Made by a program: the position numbers and the translations under genes. A stretch of 64,000 nucleotides of DNA from Arthrobacter jiangjiafuii (lineage in GTDB: Bacteria > Actinomycetota > Actinomycetes > Actinomycetales > Micrococcaceae): contig NZ_CP076022.1 in NCBI RefSeq assembly GCF_018622995.1, positions 3,472,001-3,536,000 of the forward strand, read 5' to 3'. Below, piece by piece: positions 30,479 through 34,504 of the stretch (positions within the stretch are counted from its first letter, which is position 1; each line of letters opens with the position of its first letter). The notes beneath the pieces were generated by a model, which was given only the letters and a program-made list of their open reading frames with translations, was not told where the DNA came from and did no database searches.

Positions 30479-30510
30479 GTGGCTTTCCCCGATTCACCTA
30501 CGAAAGCCAC
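30479..30510 (+). promoter_or_regulatory. 5'-UTR hairpin covering the ribosome site
   Basis: GTGGCTTTC (30479-30487) pairs perfectly with GAAAGCCAC (30502-30510), leaving a 14-base loop. The right arm contains the purine-rich GAAAG and ends one base before the ATG (30512), so the structure would hide the translation start of the exporter. Confidence 0.65.
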
Positions 30511-30511
30511 C

Positions 30512-31780
30512 ATGCCCGACTCCAGCCTTATTCCCCCTTCCACGGGGCGCCGCACCAGCGGCCAGCTCATTCTCCTGCTCGCTCTCCTGACAGCCGTGGG
30601 ACCACTGTCGATTGACCTGTATCTGCCGGCCTTCCCCGGCATGGCAGGCGATCTTGACACCACTGCCGCCGGCATCCAGCTGACCATGACCACCTTCCTG
30701 GTAGGCCTGGGACTCGGCCAGCTGTTCATCGGCCCGCTCTCCGACGGAATCGGCCGGCGCAAGCCGATGCTCGCCGGCACGTTCGTCTGTGCCGCAGCCA
30801 GCGTGATCTGCGCCGTCGCCCCCAACGTTGAAGTGCTTGCTTCGGCCCGCTTCCTGCAGGGCCTCGGAGGCGCCGCCGGCGTCGTCCTTGCCCGCGCCAT
30901 CGTCTCCGATACCGCCCGCGGTGCCGCAGCAGCCAAGCTCCTGGGCATCCTGACCATCATCTGCGTTGTTGCTCCCGTCATCGCCCCGCTGGCCGGCGGC
31001 GCCATCATTGCCGCAGCGGGATGGCGGGCCGTGTTCTGGGTCCTTGCCGTACTGGTCCTGGCCCTCTTCGTGTGGGCCGTGTTTGGCGCCCAGGAAACCC
31101 TTCCGATGGAAGAGCGCAACCACGGCGGCATCAAGACCACGCTGCACGTGGCCGGAGTGGTCCTCGGCAACCGCAATTACACGGGCTACCTGCTGACCTT
31201 CTGCTTCGCATTCGCCGGACTGTTTGCCTACATCTCCGCGTCCCCGTTCGTCATCCAGAACATCATGGGACTCTCCGAGACCCGCTTCTCGCTGATCTTC
31301 GCCATGAACGCCCTGTGCATCACCATCGTCAGCGTCATCGCTGCAGCGCTGGCCGGCAAGGTGTCCTACCGCCGGATGATCGCCATCGGCCTCGTGGTTG
31401 CCATCCTGGCCGCCGCAGGGCTGCTGACCTTCGCGCTGAACGGCACGCCGATGGTTCCCATGCTGGTCCTGTTCGCGGCCTTCCAGGGCTCGCTGGGCTT
31501 CATCTTCGGCAACGCCACCGCCCTGGCCCTCGAGGAAGCCGGCCACCACGCCGGCACCGGCTCAGCCTTCCTCGGCTGCCTGCAGTACGTCCTCGCGGCC
31601 GCAGTGGCTCCCATCGTGGGTCTTGGCGGAGAAGACACCGCCGTGCCGATGGGTATCGCCATGGTCGCATTTGCGGTCCTGTCCGGTGTTTCCTACCTGA
31701 CCCTGACCCGCAAGACCGCGGCACCCGCCGGGACCGAAGCAGACCTGCCGGCCCAAGCGCCTGCACAGCCGGTTTCCTAG
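30512..31780 (+). CDS. Bcr/CflA family drug-resistance MFS exporter
   Basis: A 422-residue, 12-TM proton-driven efflux protein. GPLSIDLYLPAFPGMAGDL in TM1 is the Bcr/CflA signature, and GQLFIGPLSDGIGRRKPML is the MFS loop 2-3 motif. QETLPMEER is the central loop. The ATG at 30512 follows a hairpin that covers the ribosome site. The divergent MarR gene should regulate it. The stop codon TAG lies in the first copy of a degenerate 20-21-bp repeat and a T-tailed terminator follows at 31893. Confidence 0.94.
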   Translation: MPDSSLIPPSTGRRTSGQLILLLALLTAVGPLSIDLYLPAFPGMAGDLDTTAAGIQLTMTTFLVGLGLGQLFIGPLSDGIGRRKPMLAGTFVCAAASVICAVAPNVEVLASARFLQGLGGAAGVVLARAIVSDTARGAAAAKLLGILTIICVVAPVIAPLAGGAIIAAAGWRAVFWVLAVLVLALFVWAVFGAQETLPMEERNHGGIKTTLHVAGVVLGNRNYTGYLLTFCFAFAGLFAYISASPFVIQNIMGLSETRFSLIFAMNALCITIVSVIAAALAGKVSYRRMIAIGLVVAILAAAGLLTFALNGTPMVPMLVLFAAFQGSLGFIFGNATALALEEAGHHAGTGSAFLGCLQYVLAAAVAPIVGLGGEDTAVPMGIAMVAFAVLSGVSYLTLTRKTAAPAGTEADLPAQAPAQPVS

Positions 31781-31823
31781 GGGCACAGCCGGTTTCCCCA
31801 GGGGCACAGCCGGTTTCCCCAGG
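31763..31823 (+). repeat. Degenerate 20-21-bp tandem repeat at exporter 3' end
   Basis: GCACAGCCGGTTTCC begins three successive units at 31763, 31783 and 31804 (20, 21 and about 20 bases). The first unit, one base shorter, contains the exporter's last codons (Ala-Gln-Pro-Val-Ser) and its TAG. The other two read CCCCAGG at that place. Confidence 0.92.
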
Positions 31824-32320
31824 TCCTGCCCGACCGGGCAGCACACCCACCCGAACCTCTGCCACGCCTCCGCGTCGGCAGTGATTCGGCATACGCCTCC
31901 GTGTGCCGTCAAGGCTCCCGGGGGCGTCTTTTTTTCTCCCCCCGGCTTTTCGCCAAGCGCAACAGCCTGCCCATTTTTCCCGGTGATTTCCGGCTAGTAC
32001 TGGCAGAGATGCGCGGCTGCTGGAAGGATATGAGCCTGACGGCAACACTCCAGCACACGTCACTCACACAGCCGGAAGGAAGTTACAGAACCCCGCTTTT
32101 CCTCCTTCAGCCCGGGCCCGGGCAGCAGGACCGCAGGAGGGGTGAGCACGCCCCCTACCTGCCGCAGGACCGCCGCGCAACCAGCCGATGACGCTCCGTT
32201 TCCCCGCCGCCCCAGCGGCCCGCTTGGAACCCCGCGCCCCGCCTTTGGCATGCCGCCACCAGGCTTGCGCCACTGCTCCACGTCTTCTCATATCCGCAGG
32301 AAAACAACGAGAGGGACCCC
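31781..32320. other. 540-bp intergenic region before the SpaB_C gene
   Basis: It contains repeat units, an intrinsic terminator (31893-31935) and then about 385 bp upstream of the SpaB_C gene. Two short open frames, 32009-32191 and 32142-32324, are present, but neither has a well-spaced ribosome site or a recognisable precursor-peptide core. I see no supported gene. Confidence 0.5.
31893..31935 (+). terminator. Rho-independent terminator of the exporter
   Basis: ACGCCTCCG (31893-31901) pairs with CGGGGGCGT (31919-31927), one T-G pair included, and C plus seven T (31929-31935) follows. Confidence 0.88.
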
Positions 32321-33268
32321 ATGAGCCAACTAGCCACACAGGCATCCAAGCCGATGTCCGCCGGAGCCGAATGGTGGTCGCTGACCATCGTCCCCGTAAG
32401 CGGGGACTGCTGTGATTCAATCCTCGGAGAGATCGTGACGCCCCTGGCCGCCCAGGCAAGGTCCTGGGGTGCCCAACGGTGGTTCCACACCCGTTCGGCC
32501 GATCCGGCTCATCCCTTTATCCAAGTACGCATCCTGGCCTCGCCCCGGGTACTGGAGCGCCTGCACTCCCTGATGCGCGCATTGGTCGACCAGTCGATTC
32601 CGCATCTGGGGGAACTGCAGACCGCCGACCACCGGGAAGACGCGATCCCGCCGCGGTGGGAGTCGGGTCCGCTGTCCCAGCGGGCAGAATCCGAGGTGGC
32701 CAAGTACGGCGGGGCCGAGGGCCTGGCGCTGGCGGAGGAAGTCTTCGAACTCTCGTCCGACCTGGCCTCCTGGGCAACGTCCCGGTTCCCCAAGGCCAAT
32801 ACCCGCTCCTCGCTGGCAGCCCTGCTGCTCTTTGACGCCGGGCACGCCATGATGCGTGGCCCCCGGTCCCCCGTCTGGGCAGACCGCCGGAGCATTTCCT
32901 GGGATTACTACTGGGACAGCCACCTGCACAGCTGCACTGCCGCCTCCGGACCGCAGTCGGCCCAGGTGCGAAATGCCCTCACCTCGCAGCTGGCGCCGCG
33001 GATTGTCCCGGCACACCGGCTGATGGCGGCGACGGCGTCCGAACCCGCCGTGGACAACTGGCGCAAGCGCTGGTCCCGGGCCATCGACACCTACCTTTAC
33101 CGGGCCGACAAGGCCCGGGCCAGCCGCAGCGCCCAGCATCTGACCATGTATCAGAGCCGACTCATGCTCAACCGGCTGGGAATATCGGTACGCGACGAGG
33201 CGGGGTTGGGACTGTACGCGCGGTCCTGGAGCAAGGAGCGGGAAGCGGACTTCCTGAGCCACTCCTAG
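32321..33268 (+). CDS. Stand-alone SpaB_C / thiopeptide-type biosynthesis domain protein
   Basis: A 315-residue protein made only of the domain found at the C-terminus of lanthipeptide dehydratases and as separate thiopeptide enzymes. WWSLTIVP near the N-terminus, RWFHTRSADPAHPFIQVRI (about 52-70), EVAKYGGAEGLALAEEVF (about 125-142) and the C-terminal YQSRLMLNRLGIS match the family's order. Members act on tRNA-linked or dehydrated peptides: glutamate elimination, pyridine-ring formation or amino-acid addition. GAGAGGG lies five bases before the ATG. No LanB N-domain, cyclase, protease or clear precursor gene is nearby, so it is an orphan. It overlaps the convergent permease gene by 4 bp. Confidence 0.8.
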   Translation: MSQLATQASKPMSAGAEWWSLTIVPVSGDCCDSILGEIVTPLAAQARSWGAQRWFHTRSADPAHPFIQVRILASPRVLERLHSLMRALVDQSIPHLGELQTADHREDAIPPRWESGPLSQRAESEVAKYGGAEGLALAEEVFELSSDLASWATSRFPKANTRSSLAALLLFDAGHAMMRGPRSPVWADRRSISWDYYWDSHLHSCTAASGPQSAQVRNALTSQLAPRIVPAHRLMAATASEPAVDNWRKRWSRAIDTYLYRADKARASRSAQHLTMYQSRLMLNRLGISVRDEAGLGLYARSWSKEREADFLSHS

Positions 33269-34473
33269 GGTGTGGGGCCGCCCGCGCCGGCGGCCCCGGC
33301 CGTCGCCGGCGCCATCCCGCCATCCGGCACGCCGTCGTCGTCGGGCACCGCAGCAGCAGCGGTAGCCGACCCCAGCAGCGACTGGTCACGCAGGTAGCGC
33401 AGCACCACAATGGCGACGGCGGTGGTGGGAACGGCCAGGAAGGCACCCACGATGCCAAACAGGGTGCCGCCCACCGTGACGGATCCGAGTACGACGGCGG
33501 GATGCAGCTTCAGCGTCTTGCCCACCAGGAACGGCTGCAGGATGTTGGACTCGAGCTGCTGGACCACCAGTACGATGCCCAGCACCACCAACGCGGTAAC
33601 CCAGCCGTGGGCCACCAGTGTCACCATCGTGGCCAGGACGCCGGTTGTCACTGCTCCGACCACCGGAATGAACCCGGCGAAGAAAATCATCACCGTCAGC
33701 GCCAGCGCCAGTGGAACGTCCAGCAGCCACAGGGCCAGCCCGATGAAGACGGCGTCAGCCAGTGCCACCGTGGCCTGGGCCAGGATGTAGGCGGACAGGG
33801 TCTGCCATGCCTCCTCGGAGACCCGCACGGCGTGGACGAAGGCCCGGTTGTTGGTCCACCGGCTGGCCCAGGGCAGGAACCTGTCCCCGTCCTTGAGGCA
33901 GAAGAAGGTGAACACCAGGGTCAGCAGGAATACCAGGGTCAGGGACGTCACCGTGCCCAGTCCGGCTGTGATGCCGGAGACGATGTCGGAGCTGTGTTCC
34001 CGCAGCTGGTCCACTCCCGCGTTGAGCAGCCCGTAAAAGTCGATTTCCTGGACGGCGAACGGCAGCCCGGCCACGAAGTCGCTGAGTTCCCGCAGGTTTC
34101 GGCCCGCCATGCCGACCAGCTGCCGGGATCCGGCGGAAATGGACGGAAGCACCAGCAATGCCGCTGCCGCGACGGCCGCCAGCAGGCTGGCCAGGGAGAG
34201 CAGGGCAGCGAGCGCCTTCGGCAGGACCCTGCGCAGGCCCCGGTTCAACGGCCACAGGATGGAGGAAAGCAGCAGGGCCAACAGGGCCGGCAGCGCGATG
34301 GACCAGAGCGAGCGGATGCCGAACCAGAGCACCACCAGGCCGGCGAGCACGATCAGGCTCCGCCCCACCCAGACCGAAGACGCGGCCAGTCCGCGGGCGA
34401 AGGAGCCGCGCGGCTTGGGCGCGGCAGTTGGCGGAGTGTCCGGCAGCAGGGCGGCGGTGTCGTTCGTAGTCAC
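33265..34473 (-). CDS. AI-2E family transporter (permease)
   Basis: A 402-residue membrane protein of the AI-2E/PerM family with about seven to eight TM segments. FFCLKDGDRFLPW (loop after TM), FIPVVGAVTTGVLATMV and LESNILQPFLVGKTLKLHPAVVL are conserved landmarks. Family members move small molecules or sodium, and the AI-2 role is not general. GTG 34473 is preferred; a GTG at 34491 would add six residues. The short gene at 34505-34705 lies just upstream on the same strand. Confidence 0.88.
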   Translation of the reverse strand: MTTNDTAALLPDTPPTAAPKPRGSFARGLAASSVWVGRSLIVLAGLVVLWFGIRSLWSIALPALLALLLSSILWPLNRGLRRVLPKALAALLSLASLLAAVAAAALLVLPSISAGSRQLVGMAGRNLRELSDFVAGLPFAVQEIDFYGLLNAGVDQLREHSSDIVSGITAGLGTVTSLTLVFLLTLVFTFFCLKDGDRFLPWASRWTNNRAFVHAVRVSEEAWQTLSAYILAQATVALADAVFIGLALWLLDVPLALALTVMIFFAGFIPVVGAVTTGVLATMVTLVAHGWVTALVVLGIVLVVQQLESNILQPFLVGKTLKLHPAVVLGSVTVGGTLFGIVGAFLAVPTTAVAIVVLRYLRDQSLLGSATAAAAVPDDDGVPDGGMAPATAGAAGAGGPTP

Positions 34474-34504
34474 CGTTCCATCTTGCCCCACCCCGGGGGC
34501 CGGG

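Follow-up and report, generated by a model that had tools for sequence, protein, structure and literature searches.

By annotation, an SpaB_C domain always marks a bacteriocin or lantibiotic enzyme, and RiPP maturation is the only use for which it is known. A different kind of small-peptide system is represented by ComRS/XIP and ComX/ComQ, peptide-pheromone cassettes with tryptophan-containing peptides; to our knowledge, few classes of peptide communication are known in actinobacteria. The chemistry of the SpaB_C fold can be read against NisB, in which the H961A substitution abolishes dehydration and keeps substrate binding (PMC4341554); with H961A and R786A, glutamylation takes place and elimination does not (PMC4341554, PMC4979651). 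Stand-alone elimination-domain proteins are encountered in class I lanthipeptide clusters, where they may perform other chemistry (PMC7268733), and the PEARLs typically lack an SpaB_C domain (PMC11962472).

The locus considered here belongs to a window of 64,000 nucleotides (positions 3472001-3536000) of the Arthrobacter jiangjiafuii genome, a single contig of 3.59 Mb that was searched as a whole. The window gene (Table 1) is a good coding sequence, with a GC content of 0.82 at third codon positions, and had been predicted to encode a 315-residue protein consisting solely of an SpaB_C domain, a claim borne out by profile search and by full-length fold matches. PF14028 aligns with residues 18-294 over positions 1-245 of its 255 (E 1.4e-18), scoring 68.4 bits for a gathering threshold of 24.4 bits. 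The AlphaFold2 model (mean pLDDT 91.5) displays the two-part SpaB_C fold, ferredoxin-like and helical, and aligns over its full length to the elimination domain of MibB (Z 19.9, 262 residues) and equally to TbtD (Z 19.5), MadB (Z 19.1), NisB (Z 19.0) and PbtD (Z 18.5), the overall Z range being 17.8-19.9. By profile and by fold, the domain spans the protein end to end: this is a genuine stand-alone SpaB_C protein possessing the full SpaB_C fold. It scores 43.7 bits against TIGR03891 (thiopeptide-type bacteriocin biosynthesis protein), just under the cut-off of 48.45, and the core paralogue of the same genome, described below, passes with 60.0 bits. The pyridine-synthase model NF045556 gives no match at E 1. 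A role in anti-phage defence was considered and dropped, since PADLOC returned no match for the window protein or for P170, a protein encoded beside its orthologues.

Table 1. Features of the window locus (window coordinates) and of the core locus (genome coordinates).
Feature	Position	Strand	Details
SpaB_C (Lant_dehydr_C) stand-alone gene	32321..33268	+	ATG start, 315 aa; PF14028, AlphaFold2, fold matches
Non-coding conserved element	32011..32044	+	34 bp; alignment of orthologous upstream regions
Tandem repeat	31763..31823		Three copies of 21-bp unit; Tandem Repeats Finder
Bcr/CflA-like MFS transporter	30479..31780	+	ORF and sequence; neighbour, outside the system
AI-2E-like membrane protein	33265..34491	-	ORF call; neighbour, outside the system
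Core-type SpaB_C copy	3464161-3465120	-	39 kb from window gene, 7 kb outside window
Core unit: 63-aa gene, SpaB_C, MTTKVWDWI ORF, divergent TrmB/LuxR regulator	G000:C1:3463899-3466588 (L005 8900-11592)

The residues by which a NisB-type eliminase can be recognized are Arg786, Arg826 and His961 (PMC4341554, PMC4979651), and the window protein does not carry the full set. Arg70 occupies the Arg786 position and Lys128 that of Arg826, the latter as read by motif only. The His961 position, the fourth residue ahead of the NR pair (NisB numbering H961, R966), is taken by Arg280 (codon 33158-33160), and alignment reveals the same arginine in 9 of 9 rows of the clade to which the gene belongs; the core SpaB_C proteins retain the histidine. 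The motifs of the family do follow one another in the order originally predicted, except that the C-terminal one, HxxxNRLG, has degenerated to RLMLNRLG. The motifs SWDYYW, WRxRW and YLYRAD are invariant among the paralogues, and D195, H201 and R248 rank among the most conserved residues. Because the equivalent of His961 is Arg280 in all orthologues, canonical glutamate elimination, the first activity listed for such domains, appears unlikely. The NisB H961A variant still binds its substrate and a non-eliminating binder would therefore be a reasonable end state, although the loss of one residue may leave room for other chemistry.

The original prediction had named decay without conserved active-site residues as the sign that would speak against it: the catalytic residue is indeed missing, yet the gene shows no decay. 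Among orthologues, pN/pS amounts to 0.02-0.10, and to 0.17-0.18 for the copy of the window genome. This copy stands at a dN of about 0.11 from its orthologues, which differ among themselves by 0.01-0.06, and its dN/dS is about 0.1, with lower values among the orthologues. The window gene is under strong purifying selection.

Six SpaB_C genes were found in the window genome: besides the window gene and the core-type copy, three are located at 1.732-1.742 Mb and one at 1.829 Mb. It had been noted that no RiPP partner lies within 15 kb, which holds in the window but overlooks these copies elsewhere in the genome and, above all, the one 39 kb away that belongs to a peptide module. SpaB_C genes are present in all 29 genomes of the genus, in one to eight copies; in a Micrococcaceae sample they occur in 64 of 295 genomes and 10 of 32 genera, mostly as a single copy, and beyond this family a sample of the order yielded weak matches (E 1e-4 to 3e-17). 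Among the named relatives are Arthrobacter citreus, luteolus, koreensis, gandavensis, agilis and castelli. The orthologues of the window gene form one clade in a tree of 77 members, and its slot is syntenic in part of the genus (L038-L040, L107-L110). The window gene is a paralogue sharing descent with the core SpaB_C gene of the same genome, their products being 57% identical. A third clade, comprising the three copies at 1.73-1.74 Mb, is characterized by low dS between species and a pN/pS of 0.30-0.58, indicating that it was recently exchanged and is loosely constrained; the paralogues may therefore differ in function. At their locus (L006, G000:C1:1730000-1749500), these three paralogues have a lower GC3 and lie near a RES-type toxin-like gene.

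A distant partner, in the form of a split LanB, had been put forward for the window protein. A LanB glutamylation domain (Lant_dehydr_N, here LanB-N) was searched for with PF04738 and with a profile derived from members of the family, and was found neither in the window genome nor in 28 congeners, which does not support the proposal. The controls worked: both profiles find the domain in genomes G033 and G050, and the family profile also in G264. In these three genomes, SpaB_C and LanB-N are encoded side by side, and nitroreductase and PqqD/M50-peptidase genes accompany them at the loci checked; the loci (L098 in G033, L099 in G050 and L101 in G264) are thiopeptide-like Micrococcaceae clusters with split LanB-N and SpaB_C. 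The G050 cluster adjoins a regulator of the same TrmB/LuxR family as that of the core locus (E 2.7e-60). No thiopeptide precursor with paired Ser/Cys was found at the window locus. Participation in tRNA-dependent extension had also been listed among the roles of such domains; it belongs instead to the glutamylation-type half of LanB (PMC11962472). As PEARLs typically lack SpaB_C, this reaction is no role for the window protein, which consists of the elimination-type domain alone and is thus not a PEARL.

The gap upstream of the window gene measures 540 bp (31781-32320), as originally given; the interval first attributed to the enzyme, 32009-33268, contains the gene and in addition 312 bp of this gap, the reading frame starting at 32321. 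The suggestion that the gap could hide a precursor was not upheld by alignment with seven orthologous loci, in which no small ORF is conserved and the sole common block is the non-coding element of Table 1. The core of this element reads GCTGGAAG(T/G)AT(A/G)TGAGCCTGACGGCA, and blastn returned matches of 34-43 bp to its region from four orthologous loci; it is limited to the upstream regions of the window gene's orthologues and absent upstream of the other SpaB_C clades. It is not a precursor, since reading frames are unconserved past MSLTA, and is probably a promoter or operator. Conserved upstream sequences differ from one SpaB_C clade to the next, and no regulatory motif common to the upstream regions of all clades was found. 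Upstream blocks of the L055 type and of the third clade were also considered as peptides and rejected, for single-base indels or for want of frame conservation. On the other side of the gap, the MFS gene recurs ahead of the orthologue in at least one other locus (L109); the AI-2E-like gene, convergent to the window gene and overlapping its stop by 4 bp, recurs in relatives and provides a synteny anchor.

In seven orthologous loci, the region corresponding to this gap holds a divergent gene for P170, a protein of about 170 residues ending in a CxC or CxCxxC tail, without a Pfam match and weakly resembling LPD29. P170 is present in 8 of the 29 genomes of the genus, exactly those eight in which the window gene has a close orthologue, and divergently adjoins seven of these eight orthologues; it is absent from G006, which carries a more distant member of the clade. 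The window locus itself has lost P170, and the tandem repeat at the 3' end of the MFS gene lies in the stretch concerned. A single weak tblastn match in the gap (E 0.03) was not accepted as a P170 remnant. The sole P170 copy of the window genome (G000:C1:1829904-1830398) adjoins the paralogue at 1.829 Mb, in which the catalytic histidine is replaced by serine. Overall, P170 (L105 8905-9408; L107 6466-6987) is found divergent to two SpaB_C clades, both of which lack this histidine.

The core-type copy leads to a different arrangement, situated 5-8 kb beyond the left edge of the window and present as one copy per genome in a fixed gene neighbourhood: a hisC-like aminotransferase gene, branched-chain keto-acid dehydrogenase genes, a class I aminotransferase gene, the TrmB/LuxR-type regulator and the divergent SpaB_C gene. 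At a threshold of E below 1e-30, the regulator was detected in 62 genomes, 62 of which also encode SpaB_C; the two SpaB_C genomes without it, G033 and G264, have their SpaB_C in real thiopeptide-like clusters. Directly 3' of the core SpaB_C gene lies a 63-aa gene found in 58 of 295 genomes, with SpaB_C in 58 of these 58. Its conserved C terminus (YLRDAAWADxxW) made it a candidate RiPP precursor, which was rejected since structure prediction gives a winged-helix-like model (pLDDT 75, with weak Foldseek matches) and another ORF is the more constant partner; the 63-aa protein is a possible adaptor.

This more constant partner is a small ORF that contains a W-x-W motif and lies between the regulator and the core SpaB_C gene, typically 80-150 nt ahead of the latter. 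A W[DEG]W motif close to a stop codon in the 330 nt upstream was recorded in 45 of 48 core loci, in none of 48 paralogues, the window gene included, and in 1.7% of random windows; two of the three core exceptions carry YDWP and WAWP, and in the third SWDWPK stands in a changed frame. The WDW precursor of the A. agilis group and others comprises about 33-95 residues; after an N terminus that is mostly of the Sec type come one to six repeats, for example ASWDWPKSQATAGSWDWPK or GVWDWPQQAVA, with six repeats in L093. The ORF of A. hankyongi and A. mobilis terminates in RAWDW. Within the window genome's own genus the signal has been lost and the ORF reduced to MKSWDWF or to a form ending in SIKSWEWF, the window genome encoding MTTKVWDWI; the shortest peptides thus number seven to nine residues (MKSWDWF, MTTKVWDWI). 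Between the WDW ORF and the SpaB_C gene, core loci such as L061, L065 and L041 contain a GC-rich inverted repeat (CCCGCCCCAGCGGG-like), which may set the expression ratio of peptide to enzyme. An Arthrobacter core locus is also borne by L085 (WNZI01000025.1, labelled Vibrio cholerae 35D), a contig that is almost certainly a contaminant or a mislabelled assembly. The open-access literature searched contained no paper on WDWPK and no system combining a TrmB/LuxR regulator with a Trp peptide, and the core unit of Trp peptide, regulator, SpaB_C and 63-aa protein seems undescribed there. The supposition of an unseen RiPP arrangement comes close to the truth at this sister locus; the window gene itself has no adjacent RiPP pathway.

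Relatives of the TrmB/LuxR regulator extend to 134 of 296 genomes of the class (E 1e-15). Among the loci inspected (L173-L201), about 11 of 29 have a divergent small ORF with a Sec signal and Asp-Trp motifs, some of them repeated (DSGWNSA-like five times in L188, DSGW five times in L197, DTGWG three times in L193) and others single (TDSLWD, NDSKWD, DPIWG). A small control on the same regulator loci gave 10 of 15 versus 2 of 15 (p 0.008). Together, the secreted ORFs and this control support a reading in terms of peptide signalling, as a lead and not as proof, and such divergent pairs are a possible wider peptide-signalling family.

From these elements we propose, with a probability of about 0.38, that the window protein, which descends from the core SpaB_C protein, binds peptides without eliminating glutamate and modulates the WDW-peptide module. 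It would no longer eliminate glutamate but would keep the peptide-binding fold, and could serve the module as an accessory, whether decoy, chaperone or receptor-like modulator; the WDW peptide of the core locus, P170, or both, are its candidate ligands. The module would be a cell-cell signalling system whose regulator answers to the Trp peptide, a reading that rests on gene order, Sec-like signals and repeats, and SpaB_C would be a Micrococcaceae addition to the regulator/Trp-peptide pair. What links the window protein to the WDW peptide is its descent and the genomes that both share. Several observations count against the proposal: the divergent P170 gene has gone from the window locus, pyridine synthases sharing the SpaB_C fold do not eliminate glutamate either, and the loose constraint on the third clade suggests that paralogues may differ in function. 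The larger scenario, in which SpaB_C was recruited in Micrococcaceae into a WDW signalling system that has a TrmB/LuxR regulator, the paralogues then expanding and the window protein becoming a catalytically altered peptide receptor or modulator, is advanced tentatively. The pairing of regulator and secreted Trp-motif peptide may constitute a wider, undescribed actinobacterial communication system.

The main rival to a non-eliminating binder is unrecognized chemistry: the window protein would be an active enzyme catalyzing a reaction other than glutamate elimination, on the WDW peptide or on the Cys-rich tail of P170, in the manner of the TbtD/PbtD cycloaddition. The fold is as near to TbtD as to MibB, strong purifying selection and the three invariant paralogue motifs would suit an enzyme, P170 with its CxC/CxCxxC end co-occurs with the window clade, and genome mining offers a precedent in stand-alone elimination-domain proteins (PMC7268733). 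However, the WDW peptide contains no invariant Ser, Thr or Cys (MTTKVWDWI in the window genome) and hence offers neither a dehydroamino acid nor a partner for cycloaddition; no cofactor site was recognized and the pyridine-synthase model does not match. We consider such an enzyme rather unlikely. A canonical one is very improbable: an orphan RiPP eliminase relying on a LanB encoded elsewhere would agree with a fold identical to that of LanB elimination domains and with the split LanB/SpaB_C pairs known in Micrococcaceae, but no LanB-N was found in the genome or its congeners by two profiles that detect the controls, the equivalent of His961 is arginine, and no precursor rich in Ser, Thr or Cys lies nearby.

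The remaining explanations dispense with the WDW peptide or with function altogether. That the window protein and P170 form a separate two-protein system, for instance a binder with a small ligand or regulator, would account for their divergent pairing at seven of eight close orthologues, for the confinement of P170 to the genomes of these orthologues and for the loss of the catalytic histidine in the other P170-linked clade; it is nevertheless improbable, given that the partner was lost at the window locus and is missing from G006, and that P170 has no known domain. The same loss of P170, the missing histidine and the greater dN of the window copy would befit a relic, the non-functional duplicate of a lost RiPP eliminase, yet a dN/dS of about 0.1, the intact frame, the preserved upstream element and the high-confidence fold make this quite improbable.

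A whole genus with up to eight SpaB_C genes, without LanB or antibiotic precursor, suggests that the customary annotation is misleading and the fold serves some other purpose. The core unit, in which short peptide, stand-alone SpaB_C and regulator are conserved across several genera, offers a directly testable case and, should the peptide be a signal, would bring a further class of peptide communication to actinobacteria. The window gene itself is a variant of a known domain family; it is the core unit to which it leads that seems undescribed in the open literature searched.

Compared with the LanB elimination domains of NisB, MibB and MadB, the window protein belongs to the same Pfam family, adopts the full fold and, like NisB, has an arginine at the Arg786 position and an NR motif near the C terminus. 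Unlike these eliminases, it is a separate, multi-copy protein with arginine in place of His961, in a genome without a glutamylation partner and with no adjacent Ser/Thr/Cys precursor. Split LanB eliminases (TIGR03891; G033, G050, G264) are likewise stand-alone SpaB_C proteins, of 310-330 aa, but adjoin LanB-N, nitroreductase and M50/PqqD genes (YcaO in one), none of which accompanies the window gene, whose product scores below the cut-off of their family. TbtD and PbtD are similar in fold, in standing alone and, in all likelihood, in not being glutamate eliminases; they act on two dehydroalanines of a thiopeptide precursor, whereas the window locus has no such substrate or pathway. The stand-alone SpaB_C proteins of lanthipeptide clusters (PMC7268733) resemble the window protein as additional SpaB_C proteins that may perform other chemistry, but accompany a full LanB, of which none was found in the window genome. 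PEARLs such as BhaBC and TglB keep the glutamylation-type domain, the opposite half, and their link to the window protein is through the LanB name only. As for the WDW module, it differs from the pheromone cassettes ComRS/XIP and ComX/ComQ by its TrmB/LuxR regulator and by the SpaB_C gene in between; it shares with them a short Trp-rich peptide gene adjoining a regulator, a secreted repeat precursor in some species and, possibly, a dedicated modifying enzyme.
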